DNA from: Desulfobacula sp. | Lineage (GTDB): Bacteria > Desulfobacterota > Desulfobacteria > Desulfobacterales > Desulfobacteraceae | DNA length: 64,000 nt | Reading direction: 5' to 3' | Assembly (NCBI GenBank): GCA_028280105.1 | Contig: JANQML010000087.1 | Span: forward strand, 56,100-120,099 | Translations under genes and position numbers: made by a program | Notes under the pieces: model-generated | Told to the model about the DNA's origin: nothing | Database searches by the model: none | Seen by the model: the letters and a program-made list of their open reading frames with translations, nothing else | Shown here: positions 8,890 through 17,041 of the stretch, one piece after another | How the letters are laid out: each line of letters begins with the position of its first letter | Position numbering within the stretch: position 1 is the first letter of the stretch

Positions 8890-9261
8890 TCAGCCGGCTT
8901 TATCGGCGTATTTTTTAAGGGCAAATCTTTCAGCAAACACAGGGGCTCCCACATACCGGCCCGAATTATCTAAAAAGGTATCGACCAGGGATTGAAATAC
9001 CCCGTCTTTTTCATGATCCATGATAAAATTACGTTCCACCTCATACGCATAGGTAATACGCTTTCCCAGCACCCGGGAGATCTGAGCAAAGGTCAGATCC
9101 GGGGGCAGACCCCGGGTAAATAAATCGGGTGTCACATCAATATCCACACAGGCTTTCATTTTTACCGCAAATGCATCTGCAGATATTTTTCTGGACACGT
9201 CCATAATTTTTAACTCAAATCCATTTTCAAGTGCAATGGTTTTCACGATATTTTTTGTCAT
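8890..9261 (-). CDS. Conserved hypothetical protein
   Basis: 123 aa ORF filling the gap between same-strand genes; no motif recognised. Confidence 0.55.
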   Translation of the reverse strand: MTKNIVKTIALENGFELKIMDVSRKISADAFAVKMKACVDIDVTPDLFTRGLPPDLTFAQISRVLGKRITYAYEVERNFIMDHEKDGVFQSLVDTFLDNSGRYVGAPVFAERFALKKYADKAG

Positions 9262-9300: not shown

Positions 9301-12300
9301 TTAAAAAAGTTCCAACTGAATCTCTTTTTTCGGTTTAGGGGAGGGTGCCGCAGGCTTTTCAAACCGGGTTAGCTTTCGTTCAATGTCGCCGATAAAGACG
9401 GACCGCTGCCTTTTTTCCAACCTGCCGAATATCTGTCTTTTTTTTGCATATGTCAAACAGAGGATTTCCATGGCCCGGGTCATGGCCACGTAAAACAGGC
9501 GGCGCTCCTCCTCCGGATCTTCAACCTGTTCACCATCCCGTGCAAACGGAATCAGCCCCTGTTCGCACCCGGCCACGAACACAACCGGAAATTCAAGTCC
9601 TTTGGCCGAATGCATGGTCATCAACGACACCTTCTCTGCTCTTTCAGCCATGGTATCCACATCCCGGTTCAAAGCGATTTCATCCAGGAACGAATCCAGT
9701 TTCTCGTGGAATCCGGCAATGGCAAGCATGCGGCTAAATGCGTGCTCCGTCCGGGTATCGCCCTCAATTTTTTCAATCAAACCGGTCTCTTTACTCAAGC
9801 GGGAAATCACATCCTTTGGATCCAGATCCGTTGTGATCTCTTTGAGCCGGGCCAGGAATCGGACCACGGATTTAAATTTTTCATCTATTTTTGTGTTCCG
9901 GATATCTCTATTTTCATCCCGTGCCAGCCACGCAAGCAGGTCCGTATTTCTCCCCCGGTCCTGGCTCTGGTGCAGCACCTGTTTGACCTGTTTACCGGAA
10001 CCGGCGCCCAGAAAGGCAAAGGCGGTCTCAAGATCCGGCACCCCCGCTTTGCCTGCCAGAATCCGGCACAGGCTGATCAGATCACGGATGGATGCCGTTT
10101 TCATCCAGGACGCTTGATCCGCTGTCTGGAAAGGGATGCCGTGTTTTTCAAATATCTGAACAAACGCACCCGCCTCTTTCCGGGTCCGGTATAAAACGGC
10201 AAAATCGGAAAATGAATATTCCCTTTCCATATCCGAACCCGCCTTGCCCGCGTCCACGGAGAAAAAAGAGGTCCCGCCCACCAGTTCTTCAATCATCTTA
10301 CCAATGGCCACGGCTTCGGCACGTTCCGACGCCGTCTCTTTGATCACAAGCTTCCGGAACGTCTGATCTTCGGAATAGATGCGGGTCTGCTCTTCGTTGT
10401 CTTCAGACCGGCTGATCATTTGAAATGAGGCATCCAGAATCGTCTGAACGGATCGGTAGTTCTGCCTGAGGATAATTTTTTCACATCCCGGAAAATCCGT
10501 TGAAAAATCCTTAAAATACCGGTTATCCGACCCCCTGAATCCGTAAATGGACTGATCCGGGTCCCCGATGACCATCAACCGGCTGTTACGGGCCAATTGC
10601 CGGGTCAGCACATATTGGGCATAATTTAAGTCCTGGTATTCATCCACAAATACAAATTGAAACCGGGTTTGAATCCGGTCTCTTATTACAGGATCTTTTT
10701 CGAGCATCTCCACGGTTAAACGGATCAGTTCTTCAAAATCCACCACATCCTGCTCCAGGCAAAGCGCCTGGTAGGCCAGATAGACAGATGAAAACGCCGG
10801 CGGCAGGGGGACAATTTTTTCCAAATCACCGGACGGATCAAGCAACATCTGCTTGCAACGGCTGATCGCCAAATCCATCTGTCTGATTTTAGCCGCTGCC
10901 GGAGTACCGCCCATGGCCCGGCCAATCAGTGACAACCGCAGGGTATCGTCGGCGATTGAGGCGTCAAATCCATTGTACTGCTTTAATATCAAAAGACAAA
11001 AGGCATGGAATGTCGCCGATAAAACCCCTTGATTTTCAGACGGACCGGACAATACCGGTAAGAAGGTGTCGATCCGTTCCGTCAGCTCCCGGGCGGCTTT
11101 ATTGGTGAATGTCAGGGCCAGAATAGAGCCGGGGTCAACCCCTTTTCGGGATACCAGATCGGCAATCTTGGCGGTCAGGGTCCGGGTCTTTCCGGTCCCC
11201 GGTCCGGCCTGGATAATGATGGCCCGAGCTTCCGATTCCACTGCCCGGCGCTGTTCATTGTTAAGCCCTTCCAGCAGACCGGCGGGTTTGGCGGGCGCCG
11301 GCCGCTTTTCTTTCTTTTTCAATTTTGGTTCGGCTTTTTTCTCTTTCACCCGGCTCTGTTTTTTTTTCTTTTTCACCGGAACCGCAAACAGGGGATACCG
11401 TTCTCCCTGCAACTGCTCTTTCTCTTGCTGTGTAAAGAGATTGACCTTACCAAATTCACCGTCAAATCCCGGATCAATATTGACATCTCCGGTGCGCATC
11501 TTTTCCACGGATTCGGCCAGCAGCGGGATATGGGCCGACCGGATCTGATCAACCGACCGGTCGGTCAAAATTTCCAGCTCCGGCCCTAACAGTTCAATCG
11601 CCTTGTCATAGTAAGTTCCCACCTTTTTGGTTTTCGAACCGACCTGAAAAATCTGAGCCAGGATATCGGCCAAGGGAATAATATTTTTAAACCCCTGGCG
11701 GTTCTCGGGCATATACCCCTCCGGCCGATTGGCCAGTTCCTGAACCCGGTAGAGCACCCCCTTTGTCAATTTTCCTCCGCACTCGGGACAGATGCCGCCC
11801 ATCTCGGCCGTAACCGACGGATTCAGGCAGACATTGCATTTTCGATGCCCGTCATAGTGATATTTGCCTTGGTCCGGATACATATCCAACGTGCCCTGGT
11901 AGGCCTGAAGGTCGTTTTTTTCCAACGCACTTCGAATATGGAAAAAACTGAGTTTTGTATCAAAAACAGAGGCATTTCTTCCCAGGTAACCCGGTGAATG
12001 CGCATCAGAGTTGGAGATCAGCCGGACATGGTCCAGATCTTTGACCCGCCAATTCATGGGCGGATCCGACGACAACCCGGTTTCAACGGCAAAAATATAT
12101 TTTTTAAGCTCCCCAAAGCACTCTTCAATGGAATCAAATCCGGATTTTGAACCGAACATGGAAAACCAGGGGGTCCAGATATGAGCCGGGACAAAAAAAC
12201 CGGCATCATCCGTCTCCAGCATGATCTCCAGCAGATCCGCCGCATCCAGCCCAAGAATCGGGCGACCGTCAGAGGTGATATTCCCGATGGCATCCAGCCG

Positions 12301-12672
12301 GGAATTAAATCGCTTAACACTTTGTAGATCCGGAAAATAAATTAAATTATGGTTTTTACGAACCCGGCCCTCTTTTTTATATATATTGCTGATCTCAGTC
12401 TGCAAAATAAACCGGACCCGGTTTCTGCACCGCCGGGGCACCGTTTTATCAATCGGACCGGCCAGTTCTTTTTTTAATGCAAACAGGCCCGGTTCCGCCG
12501 GTTCAAGTTTGTTTTCAATCTCCTCTATCCAGGCAGGATAGGTAAAATCCCCCGTTCCCGCAACCTGTATGCCTTTGATCTGGGCCGCGTAGTAAAGGTT
12601 TTCCAGATCAAGGTTTTTTGCCGTGGCCCTGGAGTATTTGGAATGAATATGGAGATCCGCTATAAATTTCAT
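9301..12672 (-). CDS. Fusion of EndoQ-like PHP-domain endonuclease (N-term, with Zn-ribbon) and UvrD/Rep superfamily 1 helicase (C-term)
   Basis: 1123 aa; N-term MKFIADLHIHSKYSRATAKNLDLENLYYAAQIKGIQVAGTGDFTYPAW, SNSDAHSPGYLGRNAS, CNVCLNP...GICPECGGKL; C-term LNNEQRRAVESEARAIIIQAGPGTGKTRTL, VFVDEYQDLNYAQY, VMTMHSAKGLEFPVVFVAGCEQG-like motifs. Confidence 0.92.
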   Translation of the reverse strand: MKFIADLHIHSKYSRATAKNLDLENLYYAAQIKGIQVAGTGDFTYPAWIEEIENKLEPAEPGLFALKKELAGPIDKTVPRRCRNRVRFILQTEISNIYKKEGRVRKNHNLIYFPDLQSVKRFNSRLDAIGNITSDGRPILGLDAADLLEIMLETDDAGFFVPAHIWTPWFSMFGSKSGFDSIEECFGELKKYIFAVETGLSSDPPMNWRVKDLDHVRLISNSDAHSPGYLGRNASVFDTKLSFFHIRSALEKNDLQAYQGTLDMYPDQGKYHYDGHRKCNVCLNPSVTAEMGGICPECGGKLTKGVLYRVQELANRPEGYMPENRQGFKNIIPLADILAQIFQVGSKTKKVGTYYDKAIELLGPELEILTDRSVDQIRSAHIPLLAESVEKMRTGDVNIDPGFDGEFGKVNLFTQQEKEQLQGERYPLFAVPVKKKKKQSRVKEKKAEPKLKKKEKRPAPAKPAGLLEGLNNEQRRAVESEARAIIIQAGPGTGKTRTLTAKIADLVSRKGVDPGSILALTFTNKAARELTERIDTFLPVLSGPSENQGVLSATFHAFCLLILKQYNGFDASIADDTLRLSLIGRAMGGTPAAAKIRQMDLAISRCKQMLLDPSGDLEKIVPLPPAFSSVYLAYQALCLEQDVVDFEELIRLTVEMLEKDPVIRDRIQTRFQFVFVDEYQDLNYAQYVLTRQLARNSRLMVIGDPDQSIYGFRGSDNRYFKDFSTDFPGCEKIILRQNYRSVQTILDASFQMISRSEDNEEQTRIYSEDQTFRKLVIKETASERAEAVAIGKMIEELVGGTSFFSVDAGKAGSDMEREYSFSDFAVLYRTRKEAGAFVQIFEKHGIPFQTADQASWMKTASIRDLISLCRILAGKAGVPDLETAFAFLGAGSGKQVKQVLHQSQDRGRNTDLLAWLARDENRDIRNTKIDEKFKSVVRFLARLKEITTDLDPKDVISRLSKETGLIEKIEGDTRTEHAFSRMLAIAGFHEKLDSFLDEIALNRDVDTMAERAEKVSLMTMHSAKGLEFPVVFVAGCEQGLIPFARDGEQVEDPEEERRLFYVAMTRAMEILCLTYAKKRQIFGRLEKRQRSVFIGDIERKLTRFEKPAAPSPKPKKEIQLELF

Positions 12673-15050: not shown

Positions 15051-15401
15051 ATGGCGGTTAAACAGTATACAGACGTACTCCCCGTGGTCATGAACAACGA
15101 TGTGGTAAAAAACGTGGCCGGACGGGTAATGATCGGAAAGGAAGACGGGGCCGAGAATTTTTGCATGCGGGTTTTTGAAATGGCAAAAGACGGTCACACC
15201 CCCAAACACGCCCATGACTGGGAACATGAAATTTTTGTCCATACCGGCCATGGAGAGGTTCTTATGAACAATACCTGGCACCCGTTGTCACCCGGTTCCA
15301 CGGTTTTTGTTCCCCCCAATGCAGAGCACCAGTTCAGAAACCGGAATGATTCGTTGTTCACGTTTGTATGCCTGATTCCTTCAGGGGTTGCCGAATTATG
15401 A
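15051..15401 (+). CDS. Cupin-domain protein (start re-set from ORF 14883)
   Basis: Start ATG 15051 preceded by AAGGAGGGA; GHTPKHAHDWEHEIFVHTGHGEVLMNNTWHPLSPGSTVFVPPNAEHQFRN cupin motifs. Confidence 0.88.
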   Translation: MAVKQYTDVLPVVMNNDVVKNVAGRVMIGKEDGAENFCMRVFEMAKDGHTPKHAHDWEHEIFVHTGHGEVLMNNTWHPLSPGSTVFVPPNAEHQFRNRNDSLFTFVCLIPSGVAEL

Positions 15402-17041
15402 TACGCCCCCGCTCCTGTGTAAAGAAAAACGGCCGATTCACTGTCGGTATTCACACCCCCGGTTTTGATGTCCGGAACCTGAGGCAGAATGAATATATAG
15501 ACACCCTGGGCTGGTGTGACGACGGCACGGCCGTTGACAACCGGATCAATTTTCCGGATACGGATCTGCAGGAACCCGGTGCAGATCCGATCTATGAAAT
15601 TGCCAATCCTTTTTCATTCCGGGGAACCACCTATATCAATTCCGCCTGGGCCGATGCCAAAGCCAAGGCCCCGGATACCATCCGGATCAGGGAACCGGAG
15701 CCCTGTTCGCTGATCAACAATTTTAAAAAGGCGGAAACAGGGTTTAAAGACGTATCTGTCTTCATTGACCTGTTGCCCCGCCCCCTTTTAATCGCCTTGG
15801 CACAGGCGTCCACCGACCCTGAGGAGCTGGTCCTGCTGGCCCGGAAATCATGCCGGATTCATTATGACCAACAGAACGGCCGTCCCACCGGAATCGGCTA
15901 TAAAAGAGACAAAGATAGTATTATTCCCGATATTTTTGACCCCGAATTGTTTGAAGTCGTGGTCAACAACCCGGATCTTCCGGACCCTTACAAAAATGCA
16001 CTTGTATTAAAACCCGGTGTCCAGGGCCATAATGAAATCACTGCCGAGTTTATTTCACCGGACGGCACCACCCATGTCTTTGAATATTTACGGCGTAATT
16101 CATACATCCCCTGGGGACATTTTGCCTCGAACATGGCAAACGACAGTGTCCGTTACAGCGCCAAAGAGTTGAGTATCCAGGATATGCAGGGTATCCGCCA
16201 TCTCTATTATCAACGGGCCTATGTCAGGATGGCCCGGGCCCTGGATATTCCAATGCGGGATAAACGGCAGACACTGGCCCCTGATCAGCTGGAATCCCTG
16301 AGAATTAAACTGATTGACCAGTTGAACCGGACAAATTCCACCGACATGGACTTTACCGCCACCCTATGGGGCTGGAACTTCGGGTTTGGATATGCCCCTT
16401 CCGGTCACCGGCTCCATGCATCACACCAGATGATCCACCAGCAAAATGCCATGATCCCCGGCAACATCCCCACCACATCAGGAGAGACCGTGCCGGCATT
16501 TGCCTGCGGAGACCAAATAGCGGAATTTATCGCCCAGTACAGGGATGCCCACGGGGTTGATTTCTTTCAGGTCTATCAGGACGCCATTTATAGCAATACC
16601 CGGACAGACGGAAATGAAAAGGGGCCGGATTCCCTGATTGTGGCGGAAGACGAACATACTCTTCTCTTTGTTCCCAAGGCGCAGGTGTGTGAGTATGAAC
16701 TGCAGCTGATGCCCAAAACCGACTGCGGGAATATCTTTGAAGCCGGAACCGGTTTGAGGGCCGCATTGGACAAGGCGATTTTGTCCGCCGTAAAAACCCT
16801 TGAGTCTTTGGGGGCCAAGCTGATCACATCCATAGAGTTTTCCAAGCGACTGGGACGATGGGAGGGGGATACAACCGGACAGCGGTTGCTATACTCTTTC
16901 ATCCCAAGACTGCCCTATGCACCGGCCACCTTTTCCGAAGCCCAGCAAAGATGGATATGCGGACTCTATCCCGAAGATTTTGCCCGGGCCTGCAGGCAGA
17001 CCCGATCCGGCAACCAGGGAGGCAGCCATGGTGATTCATGA
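15398..17041 (+). CDS. Uncharacterised protein with GalT/HIT-superfamily-like features
   Basis: Likely start ATG 15398 overlaps the cupin stop (ATGA). GHRLHASHQMIHQQNAMIPG resembles a divergent His-rich HIT/GalT motif; DSLIVAEDEHTLLFVPKAQVCEYELQLMPK resembles the second half-domain of GalT-like proteins. Fold call is tentative; ORF itself is solid. Confidence 0.6.
   Translation: MIRPRSCVKKNGRFTVGIHTPGFDVRNLRQNEYIDTLGWCDDGTAVDNRINFPDTDLQEPGADPIYEIANPFSFRGTTYINSAWADAKAKAPDTIRIREPEPCSLINNFKKAETGFKDVSVFIDLLPRPLLIALAQASTDPEELVLLARKSCRIHYDQQNGRPTGIGYKRDKDSIIPDIFDPELFEVVVNNPDLPDPYKNALVLKPGVQGHNEITAEFISPDGTTHVFEYLRRNSYIPWGHFASNMANDSVRYSAKELSIQDMQGIRHLYYQRAYVRMARALDIPMRDKRQTLAPDQLESLRIKLIDQLNRTNSTDMDFTATLWGWNFGFGYAPSGHRLHASHQMIHQQNAMIPGNIPTTSGETVPAFACGDQIAEFIAQYRDAHGVDFFQVYQDAIYSNTRTDGNEKGPDSLIVAEDEHTLLFVPKAQVCEYELQLMPKTDCGNIFEAGTGLRAALDKAILSAVKTLESLGAKLITSIEFSKRLGRWEGDTTGQRLLYSFIPRLPYAPATFSEAQQRWICGLYPEDFARACRQTRSGNQGGSHGDS

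Follow-up and report, generated by a model that had tools for sequence, protein, structure and literature searches.

The EndoQ-UvrD gene and its protein

The window, the whole 64,000-nucleotide stretch of Desulfobacula sp. contig JANQML010000087.1 that was analysed, harbours a gene for a protein in which an endonuclease Q (EndoQ) module is followed by a UvrD-type helicase (Table 1). A sequence-only reading of this DNA had given the extent of the open reading frame exactly but had missed the strand: the plus strand contains 19 stops between positions 9301 and 12672, and the gene lies on the minus strand as a single frame of 1123 amino acids. The motifs quoted in that reading (DLHIHSKYS, SNSDAHSPG, GPGTGKT, DEYQDL and QNYRS) are all present in the protein, and the identification as a fusion of EndoQ and a UvrD-type helicase was upheld by sequence, fold and active-site tests, which agree. 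While this core identity held, that reading had overlooked the predicted clamp-binding motifs, the relatives with split genes and the breadth of the distribution of the fusion. The fusion protein is confirmed to be real, with both parts in one chain; a chance or assembly artefact was ruled out by relatives, mostly full length, in 42 named contigs and across the class.

An AlphaFold2 model was built on 48 aligned fusions and has a mean pLDDT of 87 over the whole protein. Values below 50 are limited to the linker, a helicase loop (residues 803-813) and the last 13 residues. The pTM of 0.61 means that the model does not fix the relative placement of the two halves. Residue conservation was scored in 59 full-length fusions sampled throughout the phylum, one of them being the window protein.

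Table 1 Features of the fusion gene and its product (window coordinates)
Feature	Residues	Position	Strand	Basis
Whole gene, EndoQ-UvrD fusion protein	1-1123	9301..12672	(-)	One uninterrupted frame; full-length homologues
EndoQ module (PHP nuclease domain plus Zn-binding and C-terminal parts)	1-414	11431..12672	(-)	PDB 5zb8/7k30 match, superposition
PHP motif I, ADLHIHS	5-11	12640..12660	(-)	Further metal/catalytic residues E93, H108, H164, D223, H225
Zn-binding site, H276-x2-C279 ... C295-x2-C298	276-298	11779..11847	(-)	Four residues invariant
GERYPLF, putative degenerate relic of the C-terminal clamp motif of an ancestral stand-alone EndoQ	423-429	11386..11406	(-)	
Flexible Lys-rich linker	430-465	11278..11385	(-)	AlphaFold pLDDT <50 for 426-462
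SF1A UvrD/PcrA-type helicase module	466-1102	9367..11277	(-)	Motifs Q and I-VI all present; PF00580, PF13361
QLELF, predicted beta-sliding-clamp-binding motif	1119-1123	9304..9318	(-)	Conservation in fusions

Two modules, a linker and predicted clamp-binding motifs

Sequence comparison, the AlphaFold model and a fold search of the PDB concur in identifying the N-terminal module as a full-length endonuclease Q. In a phmmer search residues 5-414 aligned with residues 5-384 of PfuEndoQ (5zb8/7k30) with an E value of 3e-50 and an identity of ~30 %, and Foldseek placed the N-terminal half on 5zb8 with TM-scores of 0.87-0.89 by target length and an rmsd of 2.5-3.3 Å. Absence of PHP active-site residues on alignment with EndoQ had been named earlier as a ground for abandoning the assignment; the alignment was run and every residue is present. 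At D6, H8, H10, E93, H108, H164, D223 and H225 PfuEndoQ has the same residue, and none of the eight varies among the 59 fusions. Among them, E93, H108, H164 and D223 are the equivalents of Pfu E76, H84, H139 and D193. E76, H84 and H139 are each essential in PfuEndoQ, the alanine mutants being dead, and H139, G169 and S171 act as steric gatekeepers that exclude bases (PMC8307549). The equivalents of these three base-pocket residues (H164, G199 and S201) are likewise invariant in the fusions. The module thus resembles the characterised archaeal enzymes (PfuEndoQ PF1551 and TkoEndoQ; 5zb8, 7k30; TIGR00375) in full-length alignment, fold, and catalytic and steric-exclusion residues, and it is the same module as that of stand-alone bacterial EndoQs (Bacillus and many members of the phylum). 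EndoQ enzymes incise DNA on the 5' side of hypoxanthine, uracil, xanthine and AP sites, which yields 3'-OH and 5'-phosphate ends (PMC4357722). Among bacterial EndoQs, that of B. pumilus has activity on deaminated bases (PMC6202378).

Compared to PfuEndoQ and TkoEndoQ, the fusion has an added helicase, a ~17-residue insertion near residues 68-84 and a different zinc site. The latter had been described as a Cys4 Zn-ribbon and is best read as His-Cys3 (H276, C279, C295 and C298): the cysteine C282, the source of the Cys4 appearance, is present in just 13 of the 59 fusions, whereas all of them have H276, which aligns with a cysteine of PfuEndoQ. Since the stand-alone EndoQs of the phylum have the same His-Cys3 site, it represents variation rather than loss. 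The match to TIGR00375 has an E value of 2e-52, yet its 178.7 bits fall below the curated cut-off of 326.6, which is reached by no sampled genome of the phylum, those with stand-alone EndoQs included. Judged from these comparisons, the zinc-site and TIGR00375 deviations, being common to the stand-alone EndoQs of the phylum, would by themselves be no argument against activity. The substrate range could nevertheless differ, in view of the ~30 % identity to PfuEndoQ and the score below the cut-off.

The claim of a full SF1A helicase in the C-terminal half was borne out by both Pfam domains (PF00580, E 9e-65; PF13361, E 2e-44), by the complete set of motifs (Q, I, Ia, II, III, IV, V and VI) and by a UvrD fold. 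Matches to PcrA/UvrD structures reach E ~1e-81 (PcrA 1pjr, E 2e-81), and Foldseek superposed this half on UvrD-DNA complexes with TM-scores of 0.81-0.86, in the DNA-bound conformation. K495, D677, E678, R740 and R1066 are invariant in the 59 fusions. Because the active sites of both halves are invariant, both activities appear to be under selection. While it resembles the UvrD/PcrA SF1A helicases (2is6, 4c2t, 1pjr) in motifs, domains and fold, the fusion helicase forms a separate group in the tree, carries a C-terminal QLxLF and an N-terminal nuclease, and lacks the PcrA/UvrD tudor domain that is present in housekeeping relatives (for instance loci L119 and L123). The equivalog cut-offs for PcrA, UvrD or Rep are not reached, with a PcrA score of 385 bits against a cut-off of 911; the half is therefore called UvrD-type rather than an orthologue.

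The fusion is not the sole UvrD of the cell, as a separate UvrD/PcrA-like gene was found here and in 20 other genomes examined. In the genome of the source organism this gene (L002, 1459-3321 (-)) encodes 620 amino acids that end soon after motif VI, and its product is a helicase without the tudor domain that the UvrD/PcrA of other phylum members have. In a further genome (G138) contig C3 carries, besides the fusion, four UvrD-type frames of 631 amino acids with near-equal scores, and a similar frame of 621 amino acids lies on contig C6; these repeated frames are possibly a multiplied mobile or defence gene.

The Lys-rich linker reported earlier is indeed found in the window protein; across the fusions the linker is variable, with 48-91 amino acids and a median of 16 % Lys+Arg.

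At its C-terminus the protein carries QLELF. The consensus peptide by which proteins bind the bacterial sliding clamp is QLxLF (PMC4549789), and in the 59 fusions Q1119 and F1123 are conserved in 100 % and L1122 in 96 %. A strict pattern for a clamp motif near the protein end was matched by 58 of the 65 fusion frames, by 14 of the 20 frames with EndoQ alone and by 5 of the 36 with the helicase alone. Four of these last five are dedicated helicases (see below); the fifth is, by exclusion, the latter half of a fusion interrupted by a frame shift (L032). With the same pattern the motif was found in all 4 dedicated helicases and in none of 31 housekeeping UvrD/PcrA proteins. In archaeal EndoQ a C-terminal PIP box binds PCNA, which stimulates the enzyme, and the authors of that study remarked on clamp motifs in bacterial EndoQ homologues (PMC4858679). 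The fusion likewise has a predicted clamp-binding peptide, now at the helicase end, and on the basis of its motif QLELF should dock on the beta clamp. A second, internal (G)QxxLF follows directly after the EndoQ module in 35 of 59 fusions, compared to 0.7 % in shuffled linkers. As stand-alone EndoQs end there, it is best read as a fossil of the former C-terminus, which in the window protein seems to have decayed to GERYPLF.

Distribution, gene neighbourhood and origin

A scan of named-species genomes yielded 42 loci, all titled Desulfobacterales, Desulfobacteraceae, Desulfobacula, Desulfotignum or 'Deltaproteobacteria'. In a sample of the class, 259 of 291 genomes have a match at E <= 1e-60; most of the matches listed either extend over the entire protein or take in the EndoQ half together with the beginning of the helicase, the latter kind lying in open frames of ~1000-1190 amino acids. 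In a phylum-wide sample of 158 genomes EndoQ was found in a frame of at least 850 amino acids in 41 and as a stand-alone EndoQ or fragment in 66, with none in 51. The fusion is thus present in most genomes of the class and in about one quarter of the phylum-wide sample, while others have a stand-alone EndoQ.

The chromosomal setting is stable, with galU and a lytic transglycosylase near the fusion gene in family members. A mobile or viral origin was rejected: relatives of the fusion were not found in viral contigs, a search of plasmids with the EndoQ half found no relative, and the phage matches listed are confined to the helicase half. The fusion gene is followed immediately downstream by an ORF of 123 amino acids (8890-9261 (-)) with no match in Pfam, NCBIfam, PHROGs or PADLOC. 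It was dismissed as a conserved operon partner, being present in 12 of 42 related loci and often not adjacent, and gives no functional lead. A protein of 557 amino acids (15368-17041 (+)), with no Pfam or NCBIfam match, has copies, mostly ~54 % identical, near the fusion gene in eight related loci.

The helicase is not on the chain of stand-alone bacterial EndoQs and was found next door in only two genomes, where the two halves are consecutive genes on the same strand. In one (L103, 2268-5983) the EndoQ ends in GQLGLF and the helicase in KQLTLF, the frames being ~200 bases apart; in the other (L104, 1985-5291) the ends are KQLSLF and KQMKLF and the frames abut. Two more genomes, of the family of L104, have a helicase of this kind encoded on a different contig (L113 and L114). 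The trees were quick searches without bootstrap. In the helicase tree the 41 fused rows cluster together (SH-aLRT 99), as do the 25 housekeeping rows (100); the four dedicated helicases are placed between the two groups, the branch that joins the four being unsupported. In the EndoQ tree the split-gene EndoQs adjoin the fused clade, and three EndoQ-only frames (L102, L105 and L110) are nested within it, which seem to be due to secondary loss or to a broken frame. One of these, L105 (2112-3452 in G002, a genome of the same order), seems to have lost its helicase half, as the surrounding 8 kb contain no helicase piece. One fusion event after a stage of neighbouring genes is the simplest account: a stand-alone clamp-binding EndoQ and a dedicated clamp-binding UvrD paralogue would have become neighbours first and a single gene thereafter.

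No description of an EndoQ-helicase fusion was found in the open-access literature searched. Both halves belong to known families; their joint architecture appears to be undescribed. New here are the terminal clamp motif of the fusions and the split halves in adjacent genes that each end in a clamp motif.

A proposed role in the repair of deaminated bases

From its motifs and conserved residues the fusion should work like EndoQ plus UvrD, and it is, on balance, probably a clamp-tethered single-chain 'incise and unwind' repair enzyme for deaminated bases (hypoxanthine, uracil and xanthine) and abasic sites. The C-terminal QLELF would hold the protein on the beta clamp where DNA has just been replicated or repaired. 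The EndoQ module would flip the damaged base out and cut the phosphodiester bond 5' to it; the known EndoQ cut would provide a 3'-OH and a 5'-phosphate, and the strand downstream of it would carry the lesion at its 5' terminus. The flexible linker may then deliver the UvrD module to the nick, where it would load on the intact opposite strand, move 3' to 5' along it, as the polarity of the UvrD family suggests, and peel off the lesion strand as a 5' flap. Finally, a clamp-bound polymerase would extend the 3'-OH, a 5' nuclease remove the flap and ligase seal the strand. In mismatch repair UvrD is directed to nicks, unwinds from them and acts after the nick (PMC8744996). For archaea a route of strand-displacement synthesis, Fen1 and ligase on PCNA has been proposed to follow EndoQ (PMC4858679); compared to this route, the helicase would take over strand displacement.

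Other explanations were weighed against this one. The order might be reversed, with the UvrD motor opening or tracking DNA at the clamp and EndoQ sampling the exposed single strand for deaminated bases to cut, so that the helicase would serve lesion search. The clamp motif suggests a location at the fork, and PfuEndoQ efficiently cuts dU and dI in single-stranded DNA (PMC11354406). Cutting a single-stranded template at the fork would break it, however, and UvrD in mismatch repair works after a nick (PMC8744996), and the reversed order is unlikely. It is also unlikely that the PHP module has become mainly an abasic-site or structure-specific nuclease, acting for example on flaps made by the helicase. 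The low identity to characterised EndoQ, the TIGR00375 score and the position of the His-Cys3 zinc site, which adjoins the base pocket, would fit such a change of substrate; against it, H164, G199, S201 and all metal ligands are invariant, His-Cys3 is shared with the stand-alone EndoQs of the phylum, and one bacterial EndoQ does act on deaminated bases (PMC6202378).

An independent EndoQ and a general UvrD might, moreover, merely share a chain without mechanistic coupling. A flexible, poorly conserved linker and the return to an EndoQ-only frame in a few nested lineages (L102, L105 and L110) are what such an arrangement would predict. It is rather improbable given that the same pair also occurs as neighbouring genes, that the fused helicases group together, separate from housekeeping UvrD, and that the active sites of both halves are invariant across the phylum. 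Very improbable is a Gabija-like role in anti-phage defence by cutting phage DNA with uracil, inosine or related bases, even though Bacillus EndoQ has been suggested to act against viruses (PMC8307549) and PADLOC GajB helicase models match the UvrD half. When the fusion and four neighbours were searched with PADLOC, the best 25 matches on the fusion were UvrD-helicase (GajB) or helicase-RT models, and none were found on the neighbours. GajB matches are expected from any UvrD, the GajA/TOPRIM partner is missing, and most genomes of the class retain the gene, which in family members lies near the housekeeping galU and the lytic transglycosylase; no relatives were found in viral contigs or, with the EndoQ half, in plasmids, and the listed phage matches are to the helicase half. 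Gabija GajA-GajB and AddAB/RecBCD have in common with the fusion that a helicase and a nuclease work together. Their nuclease is of the TOPRIM or PD-(D/E)XK type, whereas that of the fusion is PHP/EndoQ, on a single chain and with a predicted specificity for damaged bases.

Within the 'incise and unwind' reading, the other repair genes bear on the likely range of lesions. UDG-superfamily genes were found in 21 of 21 genomes checked, that of the source organism included, so uracil repair is not left to the fusion alone and the fusion as a replacement of UDG was rejected. EndoV was undetected in the source organism and in all ten family genomes checked, which may reflect ancestry. Phylum-wide, the presence of EndoV has no significant relation with the fusion (fused versus no EndoQ, Fisher p = 0.20), and replacement of EndoV was not retained either. 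With a separate UvrD/PcrA-like helicase and a UDG-superfamily gene present and no detectable EndoV, hypoxanthine is the most plausible main substrate. It is about as likely as not that the phylum (Thermodesulfobacteriota/Desulfobacterota) has a core, glycosylase-independent deamination-repair pathway with incision, strand removal and clamp attachment in one chain, a 'nick, unwind, resynthesise' machine that would supply the step after EndoQ incision in bacteria.

Should the proposed mechanism hold, evolution would have written the step that follows EndoQ incision into the protein itself, a UvrD-type motor removing the damaged strand on the clamp that carries the polymerase. The fusion offers a single protein on which to study incision, unwinding and clamp coupling side by side. 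If the proposal is true, a large group of anaerobic bacteria, some of which are without EndoV, would repair hypoxanthine by means of this fusion.
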